From Siphonodentalium dalli (taxonomy: Eukaryota; Mollusca; Scaphopoda; Gadilida; Siphonodentaliidae), in NCBI GenBank assembly GCA_032622095.1, contig CP136065.1, positions 248,991,474 through 249,055,473 of the forward strand: DNA of 64,000 nucleotides, read 5' to 3'. The position numbers and the translations under genes were made by a program. Below, in pieces: positions 14,901 through 31,069 of this stretch (the stretch's first letter is position 1; each line of letters begins with the position of its first letter). The notes under the pieces were generated by a model that had not been told where the DNA came from, made no database searches, and saw only the letters and a program-made list of their open reading frames with translations.

Positions 14901-17900
14901 TGTTTCTGACGATTGCCGCCAGTGGCGGGCTAACCTGCTAGTAATATATATTTTAAGTGGTGATTAAATAATTAAAAAATCACTGCATTGATATATGGGG
15001 ATGTTTAAATCTGATTTGATGGTCCCCTTATAATCAGATTCCAACAATGACAACATTTTCAGATAACAGAATCGATTAATTGCCCAAAAATAATGCTAAC
15101 CATTGTCAACAATAGTATAAAATGCCCGAAACTGTTATATATCAACATGTTATTCAATGAAATTTGACCTTATTATCAACACAAAGCCTCTTGATTTTAG
15201 AGTTAAACATCTACATCCGCAATTTGGTCTGAGACCATCGGCTCGTCGACTTTTTACTGGGCCACTAATAATTGTCGATGGTGAAAAATAATAGATTTCA
15301 AAAATCGATATCCAATAACTCTGAGCTTTGATAGGTGGGTTCCTTGACTCGAATCAAATATTTTTTACCCCCGAATCCAAATAAATAGTAATTGAGGGGC
15401 GCTTAATCGGATTATGCATTTAAATAATTGTCTGAAATCTCCCGTGTGCAATTGAACAATTGTAATGGTTCTGTCCCATAACTTAATAATTAAACTCTTT
15501 ACGTTCAGTCTGGCATATAGTTTAAAAATCCTGAGTTATAATCACCTGGTAGTCCCAACCTAAGTCATCCAATGATGATGAGGCTTGTTGAGAAGTGTTC
15601 AGGCACTTCTCTGTTCCAGTGTAATTAAAGTATATTTCAACAGAGTTTTGTAATGCCACCAGTAGTGTCTTTCCATCCATTTCGTTCTTTGATATGGGTT
15701 CACATACAGCCTGTGAAAATATAAATATGATACTTGAGACTTTCACCTGACATAAAAAGAATGGGCCGAGATAATGCTCTGCGTATACCAGTTTTTCACT
15801 TGAATGAAATATCGAATCGATTACCCATTCAGAAATTAGAAAATTACATTGAATATTTCAGATCTTGGAGCCTGTAATGTATGAAACATATAGGCCTTTA
15901 GCACCTCCCGTTGCTATACTATAAGACTATAAATAAACCATTTCAGCTGCATGAGTGAATGATCTCAGGATATTATTTCATCAAATATGTTAAACATATT
16001 GCAAATATGAGCCATCGCTAGGGACTGGCAAAACACAGCCATGGTAATTCCAACTGCTAGAGTTACTTAGTTCATAGCTATACATACCTTCACAGGCCAC
16101 CCGGGTAAAGGCATGAGAAAGGATGCAGGGTATGGGTAGTTAGCCATTGCTAAATCACCCCATATTGCTGAAAGCCATGCTTTGAAATCAGTCACACCTG
16201 ATGTGCTTGTGATCGGCTTGCATAATTTATAGCTTTCAGATATGAATTTCTTCCCTGAGTCTGAAAAGAGTAAAGAATAACAAAGAATTGGGACTCCAGG
16301 TGGAGAGTAAGAAAAAAAGAAACATACAAATCAGATTTCAAGGGATCAGTTTTATCTAACACTAATGCTGAAGGGTTCACTCTCGCCAAAAAAGTGCTGA
16401 AGGGTACACATGGTTTGAAAATGTGCTGAAGGGTACACAGGGTTTGTGATCGGCACTAACCCAGTTACTTAAACTGTGTTTCTGATAGTCTGGCACCAAT
16501 TAGCTTTCAGTTTATTTTAATGTTCATTGGAACGTAAACAATTATTCTCTAACAGAAATCATGGCAGATACGAAAACTAAACGTCATTTAGAACGAGATT
16601 TCAAAACCTGAGTACCCTTCAGCACTTTTTTTGGTGAGAGTGACCCCTTCAGTAATACTAATGGCTACAAAACCATATCACAGGGATGTGGGCTACAAAA
16701 CCATATCACAGGGATGTGGGCTACAAAACCATATCACAGGGATGAGGCCCCCCACCCCCCTGGAATACGGAATACCACTTATCATTTATTGTGACAAAAA
16801 TCGCATTTATATTATTATTATGATCATTTTTTGGAAGGTCGGCGTACGAATACCGGTATTTTTGGAATACCGAATACCTCCTAACAGAGGGGCCGGAATA
16901 CGGCGTACCTCAGAACAGGGCATGGAATACGGCATACGAAAAGGGGGGGTGGGGGCCTCAGGGATGTGGGCTACAAAACCATATCACAGGGATGTGGGCT
17001 ACAAAACCATATCACAGGGATGTGGGCTACAAAACCATATCACAGGGATGTGGGCTACAAAACCATATCACAGGGATGTGGGCTTTAGTGCAGTCAGATG
17101 TCAGGGTCACAATTACTTTTGTTTTTTTTTTGTGCAGAGATAGTTTCATTATGAAACCATACGGTAATGCCCTAAATAATCAACTCCTTAACCATAGCAG
17201 AATTATGGGTAATTTTTCCAGAAATATGGTTTGTTGCCATTCATTCACCGAGAGCTTTCCGATGAATTGCAACAAACCATATTTCCGACTAAATCCTGAA
17301 AAATTACCCATAATTATTCTGTGGTTAAGGAGTCGATTATTTAGGGCATTACTGTACTAATGTATAAATGTAAAATAAAAACCACCATCCTCAGTGTTTA
17401 AAGCTGCCTGATGATCTGTGTGGCTCCAAGTGAGCCACCAGGACTCCCACCACAATAGAGTGTATGATTTTTGACTGAGTTATGCCCATTTTTTTTTATT
17501 TAGAAATCACTGTTTTCAGGTTGTGTGTGGTAACTTTTGCTATATTAATCAGAAGTTCTTGATATTTGGTACATGGTTCATATTTGAGAAGATGCAGGCT
17601 AAGCTTATATTTGGTTATGGTTCAATGATCATTGATGGAGTTTCACATTTGAGACGATGCAAGCCAAGTAAAATTTTAATCGCCCCCGTCGCCCACGGGC
17701 CACACGTATGGAATGCGCCAGACAAGTACACATGTACTATCAGGTTAAATAAATCACTGAAAGAATCTTGTAAGCATCCTGTCCTGGTTGATATACTTTA
17801 ATATATATACAGTAATGCCCTCAGTAATCGACCCCTTAACCACAGCAGAATTATGGGTAACTTTTCAGGATTTAGTCTGAAATATGGCTTGTTGCCATTC

Positions 17901-20900
17901 ATCGGAAAGCTCTCCCTGAGAGCTTTCCGATGAATGGCAACAAACCATATTTCCGACTAAATCCTGAAAAGTTACCTATAATTCTGCTGTGGTTAAGGGG
18001 TCGATTACTTAGGACATTACTGTATAATGTCACAATGTATTAAAACAGAGATAAAGTGAAAATGTTTGATTGTTGTGATATTATTGAACTGTCAATATAC
18101 CGTTAAGAAAATGATGTGGGTAGTGTAAGATGGTGCTGGTTTTAATACCAGTTGTTGACGATCAACCAAATATAATTACAGGACTATTTTCATGTGCTTA
18201 ATCCACATACTAAAATTGAAAGCTGCCAGATTATCATAACTTCAGTTTAACATCATCCGGACAACAAAATAATCAGCAAATTATAAAAATGGGCATAACT
18301 ATGCCAGAAATGGACGGACCGAACCCTACTTCGAACTTGACCTGTATTTTCATGTGATTAATCCATATACTAAATTTGAAAGCTATCGGATATTCATAAC
18401 TTGAGTTATCATCTGGCTAACAAAATAATCAGCAAATTCTAAGTCGAATAGGGGCATAACTATGATAGAAATGGTCAGATCGGATCCAAATTCAAACTTG
18501 ATAGGTTCTTTCTCATATGAAGGCCACATACACAGTGTTAACAAATTCTGTCAAATACTGTTCACGGTATCATCCGGACAACAAATGTTTGAGACGGACG
18601 GATGCACACTGCTCATTTCTATAAAAAAAAATTCAGGGGACACTATATACAGTACAAAATTCAGGTGTGTAATTCCCAAAGTTCATTCTATCCCATCAAA
18701 ACAATTATTTATTTTGGCTATCCAAGAAAACTCCTCATACCCACCTGATTGGCTGACAGAATCTAAACACCTCATACCCACCTGATTGGCTGACAGAATC
18801 TATTGCTTTCCAAGACTTCCTGATATTTGTGACACACGTACTGGAGCTCAAATTGAAGGCTCGGGTAATGATTGATGAAAAGGACTCGCATGGAGTCAGT
18901 CCTGTGAATTCCCAGATAGGAGCTGAGGCTGCCAGGGATCTAGAGAAGAGAATAGTAATCATCAAGACTGGAAATATATAGTGTGTGACAGATACATGTA
19001 GGAGCTGAGGCTGTTAGAGAAGAGAATAGTAATCTGTTAGAGAAGAGAATAGTAACCTGTTAGAGAAGAGAATAGTAATCATCAAGACTGGAAATATATA
19101 GTGTGTGACAGATAGGAGCTGAGGCTGCCACGGATCTGTTACAGAAGAGAATAGTAATCATCAAGACTGGAAATAGTGTGTGTCTGACATTTGCAGAATG
19201 AGGTCCCGAGAGGGTGAATTTAGTGATGCTGTCCCGCACAGTGGGCTAGCATAACCAAATTCATACTCTAGGGACCTCATTCTGCTTAGGCCGCATCTGC
19301 TATGGGAGACATAGACTCAGATAAAAGTTCCCAAATGGTGAATATTGTGATGTACACCCATTGGGAACCTTGATTATGCAATGTGTCGTCTGCCAATTTG
19401 GGGATATAGAGAAACTGAAAAAGAAATAGAATCTATGTGAAGAGTTTCTATAGACATTTGAAAATAAAGAAACTTTCCATAGAAGATAATGGCTAAGCAG
19501 AATGAGGTCCCCAGAGGGTGAATTTAGTGATGCTAGCCCACTATGCGGGATAGCGTCACTAAATCCACCCTCTGGAGACCTCATTCTGCAAATGATAGGC
19601 ACACTAAACTTAGACCATCAGTGGGACATAATATTGTAATCACAGGTATGAAAATCTGGGATTAATAGATAAAACATACATTGTGATGCTGAATTTGACT
19701 TTCATATCTACATAGTACGATTCCTTGGAAAAAACTTAACAAAATTACAAGGTGTTGTCGGATTGAGACTAGGCGATTACAAATGTGTGATCTTATAACT
19801 TCTCAGAGAAATATAACAATAGTAAGAATTAACTCACCCTATGACCACATTAGGGTATTTCATTCTGAACCATGCAGATAACATGCCACCATATGATCCA
19901 CCGAAAGCTACCACAGGTGAATGTGTTGCACCAGGAAGTGTAGACTTTAGATGTTGGATTAACAGGGCGTAATCTGCCAGTGCTTGTTCAGATGTAAAGT
20001 ACGTCATCTTCGCGGGATCCTGGAAAATATAGAATTCAACAAGAGCATCAATATGGCGTGGCAAAATACGTGGTAATTCTAACAAAGGGCCATAACTCTG
20101 GTGAAAATTGGCAGACGGAACTCAAATTCGATCTTGACCTGTATTTTGTGCTAGTAAACTCACATACCACATTTCATTCTATTCAATTCAGACTTTCCAA
20201 AGTTATCATTCGAAAATGAAAATTTAGTGCAAATTGCAACAAAAAGGGCCATAACTCTGGTGAAAATTGGCGGGCGCACCCGAATTCAAACATGACCTGT
20301 ATGTTCTCCCTGATATTAGTTGGATTCTAGTGAGTGTATCCAGGTAACTGAGTTATGAGTAGAAAACCACTCTCAGTCTATTATAACACTCATTATCTAT
20401 ACGGTTAACCCTTTACCCAACAGAAGGGCCCTGTGCCAATGCATTCTCTTATATATGCGAGTCGACCATAGGTCGCCTCACATATATAAGAGAATGCATT
20501 GGCTTAACACATTAAAAATTATAAAATTGTTAAAGAATGTAAGAAAAAATGGTAAAAAGTGTTAAAAAAAAGGCCAATGCATTCTCTTATATAAGAGAGG
20601 CGACCTATGGTTGACTCGCATATATAAGAGAATGCATTGGCACAGGGCATAACTGTAACTATCACAATGTGGTCAAGGAGCCGGTTCCAATGATATCCAT
20701 ATTTGTATGGTTCTATTGAGACAGACCGAAGATATTTTAGGCTGTTGAAGCTTTATTTGGCCGTTTTGTTGGGTAAAGGGTTAAGAACCACTAACCTTGT
20801 AAACTTCTGGACCATACGGCGAAGACTTCCCATAGTATCTGTGCTCAGCAAAAACTATCAAAGCTCCAAACTCAGGAGCAATGTCCCAAATGAATCCCTG

Positions 20901-23900
20901 TAGAATACAAGCCTTGAAATAGTGTGTCTGTCATTTGCAGAATGAGGTCCCCAGAGGGTGAATTTAGTGATGCTACCCCCGCATAGCGGGCTATCATCAC
21001 CAAATTCACCCTCTGGGGACCTCATTCTGCTTACACCTCAGCAGAATGAGGTTCCCAGAGGGTGAATTTGGTGATGCTAGCCCGCCATGCGGGATAGCAT
21101 CACTAATTCACCCTCTGGGGACCTCATTCTGCAAATGACAGACACACTATTTCAAGGCTTGGTAGAATATATTGAACATGTTAGCCCTTCTGATTCTTAA
21201 ATGGAGTTTCACATTCAGTCATAAAGTATATTAGAATAATAAGATTCAGTTTTGGTATGTTTAAAAATCAGACGGCAGGCAGGGAAACACCCTGTGGATT
21301 CCAATTCATTCATGTGTATGGATGGTTACATAATCAGCTCTCAGTTCAATGTGAAAGGCATTCTATGTAAGCTCATTATAATACCTTCTATTTAAGTCTG
21401 CGTTTAGTGTGCCTGTCATTTGCAGAATGAGGTCCCAAGAGGGTGAATTTAGTGATGCTATCCCGCATAGTGGGCTAGCATCACTAAATTCACCCTCTGC
21501 GGACCTTATTCTGCTTAGGCTTCATCTTTTCTGAAAAAGATTCTTTATTATCAAATTTCTATAGAAACTTTATCCCCAAATTGGCAGATGACACATTGCA
21601 TAATCGAGGTTCCCAATGGGTCACAATCACAATATTCACCATTTGTGAACTTCAATCTGAGTCTATGTCTCCCATAGCTGATGAGGCCATGCAGAGGATG
21701 AATTTGGTGATGCTAGCCCACTGTGCCTCATCTTCTGGGAAGTATTTCTAGTCTCAAATTAAAACAATTTTCAGTTACTTTTCTCTTCTGTTCAGTTTCT
21801 ATATCCCCTAATTTGCAGAAGATAAAACGTATGATCGAGGTGACTAATGGGTGAACATCACCAACTTCATCTGGGGAACTTCAATCTGATCCCAGGTCTC
21901 CCCATAGAAGTTGAGGCCTAGCAGAATGAGGTTACCAGAGGGTGAATTTAGTGATGCTAGCCCACTGTGCGGGATAGCGTCACTAAATTCACCCTCTGGG
22001 GACCTCATTCTTCAAATGAGAGACACACTATAATCAGGCTTGGATTTTAGTCCACATTTATATTTTCACATTCCAAGTGAATCATAGCATGATGCTGCAC
22101 ATATATGAATTAGTTCATATAAGGATTAACTGTCATGTGGACTGTTTTTATGGAGATGTAACGGTGAGGTAAGTGGACATAACTTGTGTAAAAACCGAAG
22201 GGTTTTACATACAAGTTATGACCACTTACCTCACCGTTACATCTCCATAAAAATAGTCCACATGACAGTTAATCCTTATATTTATATACATTTAGCGAAA
22301 AAGCCACTTTTGTAAATTTATTTAAATCGAAAAGTGTATCGTGACAAGATCAGCCCAAAATACCCGATAACACCCTTGGCAAAAGTTAATAGGAACAATT
22401 TCTCTTCATATTGAAACCCGATGATGTATTAAGTCAGTCCTGCGCGAGTCCAAATGTGCCCAAAACATTACGCGTTCGTCTTTCCAAACCTAATGACGTA
22501 TCGATGGTGTTATTAGCTTGGTGTTATGAGGCGTTGCGCATTCACCGAGAAATAACTGCAACTAGCCACGTGGGCGCCGACCAATCAGAATGCTGGATTT
22601 AGTGATGACAACACTTAGTGTGTAAATATATTTCGATATTGCTTTCAACAATATTAATTTCATGAATACAAATTAATAACCATATTAGGGTGTATAAAAG
22701 AAAATTAGGTGAGGATGATCCTCCAGGGAGGTATTCAATCACTTGAATATCCTAAAAATGGTCCTAATATCATATTAGGGTGTAGATATGATGCAAACAT
22801 AATTTTAGGATAGATATAGCTTATGTTATCTCCTCAGAAAAGAACAAAATATCTCTGTATACAATAAAGTGGATAATTTGTTTCTGTACCGTGTTGTTGC
22901 AAAACCAGGTAATATCTCCTTCGTTCCCAGTGTAGAAGAAGATAGGTTTGCTGGACTTGGTCCAGTACTGATCTGCTATCAAGTACCTCTGTCTGAATGT
23001 GTCATTGTTGAAAAATCCAAAGTGGTCAACCTGAAATAACAGTAGTTAGTTAGGCTCAATTGGTCATTGTTGCATGGTTTCGAGCAAATAGACACCCAGG
23101 ATCTCGCATACATGCAAAAAGACACACAGGGTGTCCCAAATGTGCAAAAAGACACCCAGGATCTCAAAGTCTCACCAAAAAACAGGAATTTAGATTAGTC
23201 GTTTGCTATTTATTAATGCGGAACTGCGCTGCCATACAGTCAGACTCAAAGTGGACAGTATAATATGCCCATTTAAATTCCGTTGATATTTCACTCCGAT
23301 CACAAACAAAGAATTATTATAATAATATTAATAAGGCCAAAAAAAAAAATGCTATGTTTCCGTACATCGACCGACCCTAAAAATAACCTGCCGACCCTAA
23401 TCTTTTTATTGATATTTTGAGAAAAAGTCAAAAAATTCTATAAAATATTTTTATTTTTTTTTACCACTAATGCTCATAAATATTGATGATCATTAGTGTG
23501 AAAAACACATGGTTTCTAACATATGCTTGTGAAAAGTGACCATGAAGTGACAGTTGTCTCAAAAGCCCCAGGTGTGTGATGGGTTGTGGATTGATGGGCA
23601 TGAATTTTGCAATTTTAATTTCATGAGAGTGGATCTCATGCCTGCTTTACCTGCATGCCTTGTTTGGGACTTATGGAACATACTCATGGGTTCCAAATAA
23701 ACATGCACGCATTTATTATTTTCTTGGAAAAATTTCCCCCCTGCACAGTGCTTATTTGAGTCTGCAAGTTTATTAATTTTGATGCTATGAAAATTGAAAT
23801 CATCACAAACTCAAGATTTCTATATGATTCTGATACCAAATTGATGAGCTTATAATTTTATGCATGTACATATTCAAATATATGGCATACATGTGAACAT

Positions 23901-26900
23901 TTAAATATTGAATAAAACACTACATGACACATACTATGTTGATTCATATGCTTGACCTACTAGTACATGTACTATAATTTTTTTAACTATAGTTGATGTT
24001 TTGCTCAGAGTTTCCACTGTGCTATTATTTGGGTCTGCACTGTTATTAACTTTCAATGGAATTTTTCCCCTGCACTATTATTTGGGCCTGCACTTTTATT
24101 TGGAGCCCGAGAGTACCGGTAGGAGCACTATCAACAGACATGGTGTGTGTATAGATATATATACATGTATAGAGGTTATCACCACATACATGTATGTTAG
24201 GGGTAAAGCTACTGTTTCCAAAAACCAGGCATGCTAGGTTGGGTGTACTGGCTACCTCCAGACAATGGGATGTAGTCGTCACAATATAAGAACTGTATAA
24301 TGGTGGTATTATGGGTAAAATTCTTATAAACGTTAGTGACATCAATTTCGTTCCAAGTTTATAGTCAAATGTATGAAAATGTGGTATGTGAATAATAAAT
24401 AACATACCTACATGTAAGCATGAAGTAAGCTTGATCTTTCATCAATCTTAATGTCTATTTCCACTGTGTTTATCAAGTAATACTTTCCCCACAACACAAG
24501 TTGGCATTTTATGTCACTTCGGTCGAAGTAATTCAATATTTCAGCAGCTGGATAACAAATATCAAAATAAAATTAAAAAAAAAAATTTCCCTACCTACCT
24601 ACCCTAATTTTTTCACTCTGTTATTGGAAAAATACAATTATTTTTTTTGGCCTAAATAGCAGACGACTAATCTAAATTCCCGTAGTTTGGTGAGCCTTTG
24701 AGATCATGGGTGTCTTTTTGCATGTTTGGGACACCCTGGTTGTCTTTTTGCACATTTGAGAGATCCTGGGTGTCTTTTTGCTCGAAACCATGCGACAATG
24801 ACCAATTCAGCGTTTGTTAGTTAGTTAGTTAATTGAGGTCCACTTTCAACAGCTATGATAAGAGGAGACCTAAAGGCTAAATTCAGGCTAAGATATTCAT
24901 TTATGTCTCCTCCCACTTTTAGAATAAGTACTCCCAATTCAGGCAGTGACTAATGTTGTATGTACTCTGTTGTCTATAGAAACCAAGAAAATGCAGTCAA
25001 CGCACCTGAGAGAACAGATTCGATATAATTTGAATCAGGGCAGTCGATTTTGAATCAAATCGAATCAGACAAACAACTATTCCGAATCAAATCAAATCAA
25101 TGTTAATAATTTCAGCCTAAATCCCACCCATCACTATTATTAGGCACATGAGAGTATGGGAGACTCACATATATTAGAGAATATATCGGTGGACGTTTTC
25201 ACATTTGTTAGCCAATTATGCTTTAATAACCGTAAATGATTTACGCTTAAGCATAATGCTTAAGTGTAATTCATTTACGCTTAAACCAGGGTTTCCGCTA
25301 AGGTTTGGGGGATTGGAACTATAGCTGCTGGGGAAAATCTCAGTCCATCATCAGACTGCAAATATCTAATAGCTTTTTTGTAAAGTTTGAAGGGTTAATG
25401 TAAGGATCTTGTCATTTGGCATCTAAACATTGTTATTGTATAGATACCTGAAACTTTGCGACAAAAACATTGTTATTATTAGGAAAATGTGTGCGTGAAT
25501 ATACGGACATTCTTTTATTCATGTGCCCCCTAATAAATTAATAATCATCATTTCATTGAGTGTACTGGGTCCGTGAAGATTCGGCGGAGGGAAGATTCGG
25601 CAGGGAAGATTCGGCTGGTTTTATCGGCCGAATTTTCCTAGGTTTATACCAATATATTGGGACAGGAGATTTTATGTTTTAAGTTTTATGAATAATGTGG
25701 ACATATTTTTTAATAATATATTACATGAATAAATTAAATTAAATGAAGCTATTACTTTTATGATGTTTTGTTTGAGATAATTTTAGAACTGGTAAGTTTA
25801 TTTGTTTTGTTTCATGAGTGAATATTTTACAAGAATAAATTACTTTTATTATTACTTTTGTTATTACTTTTATGATGTTTTGTCATTAGTTTGTTTGACA
25901 TATTTTAGGTTTATGATAAGGTAAGTTTAATATATTGAAGTTATTACTTACAAATTACGTGGTAAATCCAAATATCACGTTCGAACACCATAAGGAATTA
26001 TGATTAATGAAGATTCAATGAGAAAACGAATAAAAAATTTGACAGTTGTTCACACTCTGTTCACGTTGGCACCAAGTGTTTACATAACAGTCGGTAGAAT
26101 ATACAGAGTCGTCTTTCTGATGCTGATATGATCTCAGTGAGAACTATTCGATGTTTGTTTAGATAAGTTTGCTTAGTGCATTTCAGTTGGGACAGTTCAG
26201 TTGTTTGTTTTACCGCATCAGATCTAACGACTTTTAGACTATATAGTTGAATGAAATTGACTTCACCATATCACATCTTCATCATGCCTTCGTCCCACAT
26301 AAGCCGTAATCCCCAAGCCGTAATCCCTCCACTAATTAGTTAGATCAAACGACTGGCCGAATTTTCACCGCCGAATCTTCCCTCCGCCGAAAAATACATG
26401 GCCGAAACTTCCCTCCGCCGAATCTTCCCGTTCCCAGTGTACTGTACATACTAGTAGATGTATAGACTTCCTTGATGATACAGTGTTTTTACAGCAAAAT
26501 GTGACATAAACACAATTATGTGTCCTCTTACAGGAGTGTTGTTACAAATAATTATGTGATTAGATGTAATCAGATATGTTTGTGACTAAGTCTAATGTAG
26601 GCCTATGGGAGAGGGGGAGATAGAGGGGTAACAGTGGGAGCTCTGTGCCAAAAAAAAAGCACTTAGCGGTTAAATTCCGTACATGGCCTGATTTGCCTGA
26701 CCTGACAGACAATGTTAATTTTAGTCTTTTGACTGTTGTAGAGTGAGAGTGTGTGTTGTTGACAATGACCAGATGACAACCAGCTGATTACCTGTTGTTC
26801 AAAAAAACTTAGTCTTGTATTCATATTTGCGTGAATTTTCTGTATTTTCTAACTCGCCATCATGTTGTCGCCTCATTAGTCGTCTTTCTAGCTTAGGAAG

Positions 26901-27081: not shown

Positions 27082-29861
27082 CTTCTTCTTCTAGCTATCG
27101 ATCCGTCCGTTTAGGACAACCTCGTGTTGCGAGTAAAGTCCGCACTTAACTGTGGTCTATACATATGTACAGCCTAAAATAATACTTAGATAAAACAAAG
27201 ATTTGGTGGAGACGTGCAGATTCAGCATTCGCAGATGTATTAATTTATGAAAGTTACTTTTTTGCAGACAGTGTTCTGTATCGCGCACAATGAAGATAGT
27301 AACAGGGGTCAGATGAATGATGATGCAGGTCCTCAATAGTGTGGATATCAGCAGTCTCTATGCCAGGTAGTGATGAAGGATCTGTCAGGAATTGTACTTT
27401 TATTTCATCCGTACACAGTTTGAATTCTGAAGTGAATATAATCTGATAACATTCAGCTACTAGAGGGAGTGTCCGATCTCTGACAGGTTGTAAATATGTA
27501 CAGTGCACTGAGTGCAGTAGAAAGTGTTGTATGGTTTCAGATTCCTCATTACATAGCAAGCATATATCAGAAGTTGAATTTTTATTGTATCGCTGTTGGC
27601 GTATACCAAGTGAGTATGTATTTGTCACGAGTCGAAGTTTGGTTGATAGTTTGAAAACAGGATCGATGTTGCTCACTGCGGGTCTTCAGAAGCTGGTTGA
27701 CTATCCCAGGATTATACGAATATGAATTAAGACGTGCTAAAGTACTGTAGAAAGCAGCTTCAGCGACAATCCGATCTTTCCAGTACAATTTAACTGCTTT
27801 CTTCACTAGATGTTTCCATTCCTCTTTGCTGTGTGGTGATGTTAGTTCCTCATAGATGCACAATAAATCATATTTTAGAAATAGCTTTCTGACCTCTGAG
27901 AACCAACTATTGCTGTTGACATCTTTAAGTAAAAGTTGACGATGGGCGAGCGTTTTTTTCAATGGCAGAATCAGGTTGTCTACAAACATTGTTGAATAAA
28001 ACAAGTACTTTTTTGTCGATTTGTCCCTGAATAGGTAAAAGTCCCGATAAAATAAATACAGCCGGGTCTGCAACTGCATTTGATAGTGATAAAATCTGTT
28101 TGATGAATTTCTTTTGGAAGGACTCCAATAATTTCACATGCTTCGGAGATGGAATTAAAACTTCACATCCATAAGTTAAAACAGGAGCTACATAAATATT
28201 AAATAGATGTATACATGTTTGATGATCCAGGCCATTCTCACCATGGAATCCAAGAGGCATAAGAACATAAGCAGTCCGACGAGCCTTTTTGATATTGTTG
28301 TTTATTGTTTCCAGGATAGTTTTATTGATAGATGTTGCCCGAATAATTCCTAAATGTGAGGAGGAGTCAACATTGGGCATATTTATGTTGTCAATGGTGA
28401 AGGATTCAACTGGATGCTTCTTCTTTCCACATTGGGATACTTTGATAATGACACTCTTCTTAGGTTGGAGCAAATACCGGTGTTCTCTGCTATACTGGTA
28501 TGCCACATTAATGAGAGTTTGTAGATCAGTGACGTTTGAGCTCACAAGGGCAATATCATCAGCGCAGGCAGTTGCCGATACATTTGTATTTCCAATCGTA
28601 ATCCCAAGGTGTTGATCTGATAAACGTTGTAGGAGATCATTAATATAAAGTTTGTAAAGATCGGCACTCAAAATTCCTACTTGTCGCACTCCTTGTAATA
28701 TTTGGAAACTTGCAGATTTCTTGGATGCCCATTTGACGACAGAAGAACAGTCAGAATGAAGATCATCAATACTAGACCATGTGTTGTAGTCAGTTGATGT
28801 GATAAAAGTTTTCCGAAGAAGAATTTCTTTACAAACAACGTCAAAAGCTGACTTGGCATCGAGTAAGGCAATATATACATCTGTTTTGTTGTCATATTGC
28901 TCCCTGATTGCTTCCTCTAACAAGAGTGCACTATTTAAAGGAGAAGCATTTGCCGTGAAACCTCTTTGTAAAGGTGATTGTTCAGGTAGAGTGTATTTCC
29001 TTAGCTCGTCACGAATGATAACTTCAATAATTTTAAGTAGAACAGGTAGAACAGTTATTCGGATCCTCTGTAATTTCCAGAATTATTTTTTTCACCTTTG
29101 TTCTTGTAGATAGGGTTGAGAAGACCAGTTTTCAATGGAGTCGGAATAGTGTTATGCTGAAGTATCACGTTGATTAATTCAGTTAATATGAACATAAAAT
29201 TGTCACTAGCATATCGAAAGTGTTCTGCAGAAAGTCCAAAAATATCCTCGGCTTTCCCCTTTATTTAGCGTTGAAATTGAATGCTTCACTTTCTGAACAT
29301 CAACCACTAATGCTGTCTTCTCAGTCCTAGAAGCTTTGATTGCAGCATAGTCATCAAGTGCTTGATGGTAAAAAGAGAAGTCATATGAGGTATTGTCACT
29401 TGGAGATGCAAGTTTACTGAAGTGTTCATGCCATCCATCAATTACATCATCGTTGCTGTACTTGGTGTCATTCACATATAAATCACTAATAAAGGTGTTA
29501 CCATTACATTTTTGTCGTTTGATCAACCTGTAGAAAAGGTCCTTATCTGCTTCTCTAGACTGCATGATGGAACTCTTTAGGTTCATATTCTTCTGTAATA
29601 CAGCTTTGCGCACAAGCAACCTATATTCCTTCCGAGAATCTTTTCTGTTGATACACAACTCATTTGTTGGGTCACTTGGTTTACCAGCTGTTATCCAATC
29701 TGAGTGTGCCTTCCGGTTCTTATGCAGTGCGCTGGCGATAAATTGGTTCCAAACATCTAGTTTAGGTTTATTTTTGTTAAGTCTTCTTTTCGGAGTACAT
29801 TCACCAGCAGAGCTTGTGAGGATATTAAATAATGAATTGATGGATATCATCACATCAGTCT
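27082..29861 (-). mobile_element. Truncated non-LTR retrotransposon (LINE)
   Basis: A degenerate reverse-transcriptase ORF runs on the minus strand in at least four frames. The pre-RT linker (29853-29260) reads RKEYRLLVRKAVL. The RT segment (about 29060-27950) includes YIALLDAKSAFDVV, GVRQVGILSADLYKLYINDL, ACADDIALVSS and LQPKKSVI. The C-terminal cysteine segment (about 27560) reads CLLCNEESETIQHFLL. No endonuclease domain is present, so it is 5'-truncated. Its 3' end on the minus strand finishes in an agaagaagaag tail. The boundaries are set by comparison with the LINE-free duplicate at 32605-33115. Confidence 0.88.
28000..29060 (-). pseudogene. LINE reverse transcriptase, decayed
   Basis: This is the RT core of the LINE. 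The polymerase box reads CADD where YADD is expected, and the upstream motif reads GVRQVG where GVRQGG is usual. Frameshifts occur near 29255, 29053 and 27945. The element cannot make a full protein as assembled. Confidence 0.85.
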
Positions 29862-31069
29862 TCCGGTGAAGACATTACTGTGCCGGAACAATGTATTAAC
29901 TGACAGCACAGTGGTATTTCTGGCTGTTAATTAATTAATTGACCTAGTGAAAGAGCTGCAGTGGTATTCACTTGACGGTCTATTTCAGTGGGTTTATAGA
30001 ACTTAGAAGTGCTACATTCTGGTCTCTAGACAATCATGTTAACTTGTTTAAAGATACATATAATCTGATTCGATGGTCCCCGTATCATCCAGTTACAACA
30101 AGACCGGAATTTCTCACACCATTATAATTAGTATTAGTATCTGTCCTTGGGCCCATCTACATAAACGACCTCCCATCCTCGCTATCGGGCAATTTTTTTA
30201 TCAAAATGTGTAATTACTAAACCGGAAATATTTACTCTATAGACTATTATATTACTCCGACGATACCGGTACACTTCTGTTACACGAACTATAGTGACAT
30301 TTGAACTTCCCATGATTCTCTTGGATTTCCCATAATTCTAATATCGGGTATAAAACACTTTTCGCGCCGAAAATATTCACTCGATTTCGAATTTTTTCGA
30401 CATGGCACTTCGATTAAGTTTTCCCCCACCCACCCTATTCCCCCTTGTTTTCTAATTCAGATCAGTTTTAGATGATTGTTCACGGTAATTCGCTTACCGC
30501 TAGAATAATGGTTATTTCTTGAGATTTTGTCTCTGTTCTGATTACATAATATTAATAATATGTGTTATATATTTATGTGGGCAGAAGTTGGAGAATTCAT
30601 AATAATTTCATGTGTAAAAGGTAGAGTGCAAGCATGAGGAGGAGAGAAAAGTGAGAGTAAGGTTTCATTATTGTTCACATGTTTAATGTATGTTTGTTGG
30701 GAGATCAGATCTCAATAAATAATATTATGGCCATTCCGTCTTTGTCATAATTTCCATATGGAGTGGTTCTAATTAATAGTGAAGGGCATAGTAATTAAGT
30801 CACTATCGCCTCTTTGTAGATGACACTATAGCTGAAATGGTCATTGTCACCACCTTTCGTTTAGTTGGGTACCCAGCTTTTTTAAACTTTCAGTTGGGTA
30901 CCCAGCTTTATGTAGCAGTACAATTGAGTACCCAGCTTTATGAAATCTCACACAAAGCTTGATTTAATTAGTGATTGCCCTCAGTTGATTTGCGAAATGA
31001 ACCTGGTAATTTTGTCAAATTCTTGTTTAATATGAATAATGATGTCTATTCGTCACGCAGTCTATGTAA
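29862..31069. other. Ancestral PRCP upstream DNA and spacer
   Basis: 29862-29884 and 30107-30150 match the LINE-free duplicate near 33040-33115, so this was PRCP-proximal DNA before the LINE arrived. The phrase 'agttgggtacccagcttt' is repeated three times at 30860-30945. No gene was found. Confidence 0.6.

Follow-up and report, generated by a model that had tools for sequence, protein, structure and literature searches.

The window analysed here is a 64,000-nucleotide stretch of the genome of the scaphopod mollusc Siphonodentalium dalli (GenBank assembly GCA_032622095.1, contig CP136065.1, positions 248,991,474 to 249,055,473). That genome comprises 2.23 Gb in nine contigs, and the window is part of contig C5. 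Its minus strand carries a PRCP-type (S28) serine carboxypeptidase gene, in which exon 3 is enclosed by two different miniature inverted-repeat transposable elements (MITEs), called here MITE 1 on the acceptor side and MITE 2 on the donor side ( Table 1 ). The general picture is that of a transposon-crowded gene which retains minimal splice signals; what is unusual is that MITE 1 separates the acceptor AG of intron 2 from a motif that is likely to be its branch point.

Exon 3 was placed by homology. The joined translation of exons 2, 3 and 4 aligns with human lysosomal Pro-X carboxypeptidase (3n2z, E = 1.1e-61) without a gap at either junction, is closest to PRCP among the solved relatives (210 bits for 3n2z versus 155 for DPP2), and matches the Pfam S28 profile with an E value of 2.2e-43. 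The reading frame is continuous through the exon (CNNT / GFIW...VYK / DPAK). On these comparisons exon 3 is confirmed, with the boundaries and the 102-bp length that a first-pass annotation of the window had assigned to it. The S28 match at exon 4 contains one TGA and extends beyond the donor; by our reading this codon (GGG TGA) is intronic. Further PRCP matches, obtained with a paralogue from contig C1 as query, lie at 18.7–18.9, 16.1–16.3, 11.1–11.3 and 8.75–8.94 kb of the window, and a segment near 15.6 kb was taken as another exon by eye.

Table 1. Features around exon 3 of the PRCP gene, in window coordinates.
Feature	Position	Strand	Remarks
PRCP exon 2	22890-23030	minus	141 nt
CTAAC, proposed original branch point	21180-21184	minus	A at 21181
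MITE 1 with both copies of its target duplication	20900-21169		
Target duplication GTAGAATA, right copy	21162-21169		8 bp
MITE 1	20908-21161	none	254 bp, palindromic, perfect terminal arms of 57 bp
Second in-frame, stop-free AG in MITE 1	20928-20929	minus	30 nt upstream of exon 3
AG of in-frame AAG in MITE 1 terminus	20913-20914	minus	15 nt upstream of exon 3; use would add ACILQ
Target duplication GTAGAATA, left copy	20900-20907		8 bp; touches the AG; transcript reads TATTCTAC
Acceptor AG of intron 2	20898-20899	minus	
PRCP coding exon 3	20796-20897	minus	102 nt, phase 0 at both ends, 34 conserved residues; homology and splice dinucleotides
Donor GTTAGT of intron 3	20790-20795	minus	
MITE 2	20405-20784	none	380 bp including TTAA at both ends; inner inverted repeats of 76 nt
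PRCP exon 4	19838-20019	minus	182 nt
Inverted pair flanking exons 3 and 4	19474-19615 and 21396-21537 (intron 2)		142 nt, 89% complementary

Genome searches place both elements in dispersed families, and their ends, target duplications and copies elsewhere bear out the earlier claim that two different MITEs enclose the exon. MITE 1 was found in at least 40 scored places (the best 40 of 5165 first-look candidates), and many of the alignments span query positions 9 to 262 exactly, the element's own ends. In the 32 of these 40 copies whose flanks were counted, the window copy included, the 8-bp flanks are identical in 22, carry one mismatch in six and two mismatches in two, and do not match in the last two. 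The longest stop-free run on either strand is 55 codons. MITE 1 thus has the marks of a MITE: it is short, lacks transposase coding sequence, and has terminal inverted repeats, dispersed copies, sharp ends and target duplications. The left copy of its duplication abuts the AG directly, with zero bases between them rather than the single base given in the first-pass annotation. The same annotation had taken all intron sequence beyond -11 on the acceptor side and +12 on the donor side for transposon. Both elements do lie there, but positions 21170-21393, directly beyond MITE 1, belong to neither of them.

The hAT-like label that MITE 1 had received is upheld in one respect only. The element has the 8-bp target duplication that is a criterion for the hAT superfamily, and a duplication of this length is not specific to hAT. 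In 28 copies with at most one mismatch, both strands counted, the duplication shows its strongest preferences for T at position 3 and for A at position 6, each present in 34 of 56 cases; T occupies position 2 in just 20 of 56. These preferences do not match the hAT target consensus, which is nTnnnnAn or nnnTAnnn. Among 30 loci around matches to the hAT dimerisation domain (from 150 scored of 1916 candidates, with 1.5-kb flanks that may miss some ends), no MITE 1 terminus was judged by its distance to be the transposase element's own end; a terminus-like 15-mer was present in three of them, one being a whole nearby MITE-like pair. The single point that would argue for a hAT-like assignment is the length of the duplication.

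MITE 2 was likewise found in at least 40 scored places (the best 40 of 1443 first-look candidates). TTAA stands on both sides in 27 of the 28 listed copies whose flanks were counted, again including the window copy, and the remaining copy has TCAA/TTAA. The terminal arms are 26 nt long and 92% complementary, and the longest stop-free run on either strand is 77 codons. This element, too, is a MITE, being short and free of transposase coding sequence, with terminal inverted repeats, dispersed copies, sharp ends and TTAA duplications; the duplications and the termini starting with CCC mark it as probably piggyBac-like. As annotated earlier, it ends 11 intron bases after exon 3, that is, after the six donor bases (GTTAGT) and five more.

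It is possible, though unlikely, that the two insertions weaken exon 3, so that this allele skips the exon (in frame, with loss of 34 residues) or retains part of intron 2, and that the insertions are mildly harmful or segregating. The window copy of MITE 1 differs by 1.18% (substitutions) from the consensus of the sampled copies (0–2.75% in the others) and that of MITE 2 by 1.35% (0–1.35% in the others; it ties as the most diverged of 28), figures that come from a sample biased toward window-like copies, carry no clock and neither date nor order the insertions. Since both copies are near their family consensus, they need not be old. Against a weakened exon, the frame of exon 3 and the splice dinucleotides on both of its sides are intact, the recovered exons align as coding sequence, and the donor has seven of nine consensus matches, equal to the best of the six donors compared and exceeded by none.

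Foldback stretches are frequent in the window, which holds 18 (overlaps merged, so that 20908-22041 counts as one), as opposed to a total of one in the 50 kb of five arbitrary 10-kb stretches elsewhere. At 18 per 64 kb, an element end would fall no more than 12 nt from any particular splice site with a probability of about 0.0034, and on both sides of an exon with about 1.1e-5. If 200,000 internal exons are assumed, the number of doubly enclosed exons expected per genome from foldbacks alone is about two at the density of the window and about 0.01 at that of the five other stretches, and other transposons would add to both figures. Two such close insertions at one exon are plausibly a coincidence.

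When the flanks of MITE 1 are joined with one copy of the duplication, the inferred empty site reads ...GGGCTAACATGTTCAATATATTCTAC-AG-GGATTC. In it, the A of the CTAAC motif lies 21 nt from the AG; MITE 1 now sits between the two, and along the present linear RNA the distance is 283 nt. Branch-like motifs were scored as 7-mers with hand-set weights at the acceptor of exon 3 and at three others, those of exons 2, 4 and 8. The best 7-mer of the empty site is GGCTAAC, with a score of 7.8, and the motifs of the other acceptors are alike (AACTAAC at 15 nt for exon 2, TATTGAT at 28 nt for exon 4, and TAATAAC at 34 nt for exon 8). In the first-pass annotation, the terminus of the MITE, ctatttcaaggcttg, was the necessary source of the branch point, a claim that is not supported. 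The best branch-like 7-mer of that terminus scores 5.8, below GGCTAAC on the other side of the element, with which the predicted hairpin would rejoin the AG. The score of GGCTAAC is suggestive of a branch point, not proof of one. About 90% of human branch points lie in the range of 19–37 nt (PMC7969005 section 18), which includes both the 21 nt of the empty site and the 29 nt that result if the hairpin described below is folded.

Eighteen AGs stand between CTAAC and the used AG, all inside MITE 1. Splicing to any of sixteen of them, including the first after CTAAC, would introduce a stop codon ahead of the exon 3 donor. Full-length protein would thus not result if an unfolded RNA were scanned from CTAAC and the first AG used. 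The only AGs in frame and free of stops are those 15 and 30 nt upstream of exon 3.

The branch point could alternatively be a new one supplied by MITE 1, though from within the element rather than from the terminus named earlier. The likeliest motif would be AAATGAC; the AAG 15 nt upstream of exon 3 would then compete with the annotated acceptor, and some transcripts would gain ACILQ. We regard this as possible but rather improbable. AAATGAC, which is inside MITE 1 and 33 nt from the AG, is the top-scoring motif (7.0) within 12–60 nt of the AG in the present linear intron, and the AAG acceptor is in frame and stop-free. Going by the legend to figure 7 of PMC1431707, human exons with the shortest AG-free zones (12–19 nt; 8,657 exons) show acceptor isoforms in 15.1% of cases versus 9.6% overall; the number of such exons means that short zones are not rare. 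Nevertheless, chance alone should produce a score of at least 6.8 in 66% of such zones, and AAATGAC lies within the predicted 57-bp perfect arm. The AAG is 18 nt downstream of the motif, past the 12–15 nt over which, according to PMC1431707, an AG can be bypassed; it should thus be preferred, yet the aligned relatives have no insertion at this junction.

Strong hairpins beside both splice sites, as the first-pass annotation proposed, are recovered as predicted folds. On the transcript strand, 20880-21210 folds at -245.9 kcal/mol, compared with a mean of -95.4 (standard deviation 5.95) for shuffled sequences, none of 100 of which was as stable, and the 426-nt MITE 2 stretch folds at -188.7 kcal/mol (z = -17.6). 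The predicted MITE 1 stem starts exactly at the ends of the element. In five contexts of 331–1601 nt its closing pair has a probability of 0.83–0.87, the next pair 0.98 and the following 13 pairs 0.99–1.0, while the proposed branch A is unpaired with a probability of 0.98–1.0. Two contexts agree in pairing both bases of 16 among the 18 AGs that lie between CTAAC and the used AG. In the 331-nt context the used AG is itself predicted to be mostly unpaired, with unpaired probabilities of 0.79 (20898) and 0.95 (20899). When MITE 1 is folded alone, the full hairpin reaches -236.8 kcal/mol. A path in which two local inner hairpins arise first, as they might during transcription, reaches -202.9 kcal/mol and would still close the element with its 28-bp terminal stem. 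The path from branch A to AG outside the hairpin is about 29 nt, that is, 21 nt plus the eight duplicated bases.

These predictions suggest that MITE 1 is looped out of the splicing path, leaving the old branch point and AG usable, a reading that we favour and to which we give a probability of about 0.4. In this scheme, two MITEs would have inserted independently in the introns flanking a conserved PRCP exon. MITE 2 would have entered past the donor recognition site, leaving the donor intact, and MITE 1 would have entered the 3′ splice-site region between CTAAC and the AG, copying the eight bases next to the AG; because these were duplicated, the sequence contacting the AG would be unchanged. 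Thanks to the almost perfect palindrome of MITE 1, a hairpin would form in its RNA in the cell and close at the element's own two ends, pairing most of its AGs; in CTAAC, only the 5′ C would be paired, and branch A and the other three bases would stay free. The branch point-to-AG path would return to about 29 nt plus the base of the stem, which the spliceosome would have to cross, and splicing would continue with the old signals, CTAAC serving as branch point now as before the insertion. The two leading explanations would differ in their acceptors: under loop-out the AAG at 15 nt would be hidden in the stem and the CAG acceptor favoured, whereas a branch point at AAATGAC would favour the AAG.

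Several points weigh against the looping out of MITE 1. Chance alone would give a score at the level of GGCTAAC in about 16% of 28-nt zones, or about one in six. The 5′ C of CTAAC (21184) is predicted to be paired, with an unpaired probability of 0.02–0.19. The AG, too, is predicted to be mostly paired in all four contexts that exceed 331 nt (unpaired 0.02–0.21 at 20898 and 0.03–0.61 at 20899), as is the exon 3 donor in the two longer of three contexts, although long-range pairing predictions of this kind are unreliable. The predicted pairing of AG and donor would also suit a weakened exon 3. Long duplexes may attract proteins that bind, edit or cut them. Some hairpins located between the branch point and the AG reportedly block step 2 of splicing, to judge by the title of a 1997 paper by Liu and others in RNA. 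Finally, the yeast stems considered to shorten the path from branch point to AG are called from a minimum of 6 bp, and the stem of MITE 1 exceeds 100 bp.

The proposed mechanism is already of a known kind; the difference is that the hairpin is a transposon. A hairpin is said to permit distant branch acceptors, according to the title of a 1989 paper on adenovirus E1A. As in the E1A intron and its kin, a stem would separate branch point from AG and bring them closer along the path; unlike those hairpins, which are parts of their own introns, the stem here comes from a transposon inserted over 254 nt, and it is by prediction that it has this effect. MIR elements, which offer a second comparison, are short interspersed elements and not palindromes. 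When MIR elements were inserted into an OGDH reporter downstream of its distant branch points, splicing from a new branch point was repressed in all constructs but one, and MIR elements upstream or downstream of those branch points consistently impaired the exon pattern (PMC7969005 section 18), a result that would fit a weakened exon 3. The two cases share a transposon between branch point and AG, but MITE 1, by prediction, can fold itself away.

Other likenesses are more distant. Plant MITEs in genes near splice sites, among them a carrot hAT-like element and a mulberry example, are tied to splice variants in an excerpt of PMC12595863; whereas those MITEs create or alter variants, the coding exon here is conserved and the proposed effect is near-neutral. 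Zebrafish introns can be spliced without U2AF2 by means of repeat hairpins, as part of PMC9198270 describes. RNA structure would compensate for splice signals there as here, although the zebrafish repeats bridge the intron from opposite ends and the MITE 1 hairpin is local to the 3′ end. In a study of tailed mirtrons (PMC10853799), a hairpin beside the 5′ splice site changes the splicing of its intron. Amoebophrya introners, in the excerpted account of PMC7789003, resemble the locus in having inverted repeats and a direct duplication close to a splice site; they differ in being whole introns bounded at the repeats, while MITE 1 lies within an intron of about 2 kb and the AG is outside the element. 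An introner origin was rejected, the acceptor AG and donor of exon 3 both being outside the two elements. A word search of open-access literature, covering titles and the starts of abstracts, found no paper on a MITE between branch point and AG, a result that does not imply absence from print.

Insertions between branch point and AG are usually harmful. It may be that a palindromic transposon is tolerated there because its RNA folds out of the splicing path, such that the 3′ splice site would hardly notice palindromic MITEs, whose shape would partly account for their nearness to exons, but we hold this broader proposal to be tentative and somewhat unlikely. If MITE 1 is indeed looped out, the locus would be a natural test of RNA structure bridging branch point and AG over about 250 nt in an animal gene, and, genome-wide, the interval from branch point to AG would be expected to contain foldback transposons at a higher frequency than non-palindromic ones. 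If it is not, exon 3 would be an ordinary case of a transposon-crowded gene keeping only minimal splice signals.

More diverged stretches of the MITE 1 family occupy 19178-19615 in intron 4 and 21394-22049 in intron 2, so that exons 3 and 4 lie between copies of inverted orientation. Such copies could favour back-splicing and hence a circular RNA, an outcome we consider very improbable. The inverted pair of Table 1, together with a second pair of arms (19289-19409 and 21568-21688), would supply the pairing, and mammalian circular RNAs are associated with reverse-complementary repeats and young transposons (PMC8516420). The copies are, however, foldbacks themselves, so folding within each copy should compete with pairing across 1.8 kb.

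Additional repeats crowd the gene. Near-perfect foldbacks also occur in PRCP introns at 22117-22281 (78-nt arms, 94% complementary) and 17806-18026 (109-nt arms, 95% complementary). A long element at 23054-24811, with 159-nt inverted arms that are 89% complementary, ends about 23–29 nt before exon 2, just outside the CTAACTAAC motif of its acceptor. Upstream of the coding exons found, minus-strand open frames of up to 385 codons at 27257-29874 resemble reverse transcriptase by eye, no family search having been made, and are probably a long interspersed element.

A search of the same genome for S28 genes (11 matches from 14 candidates) returned the window gene, a single-exon paralogue on contig C1 and a more distant multi-exon gene on contig C4, but no recent copy of the window locus that could have served as an empty allele for comparison. 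The paralogue (C1:97018739-97020019) has an open frame of 486 codons covering profile positions 1–432 of 434 and is possibly an old retrocopy. Three matches of the C4 gene (155.96–155.99 Mb) contain internal stops (three TAA, one TAA and one TGA, respectively), which could be either introns read through or signs of a damaged gene. Intron 4 of the window gene contains, at 18913-19193, roughly three tandem copies of the beginning of PRCP exon 5 together with its acceptor region, giving decoy acceptor-exon pieces; a 22-nt unit of this repeat recurs at 18917, 18999 and 19113.

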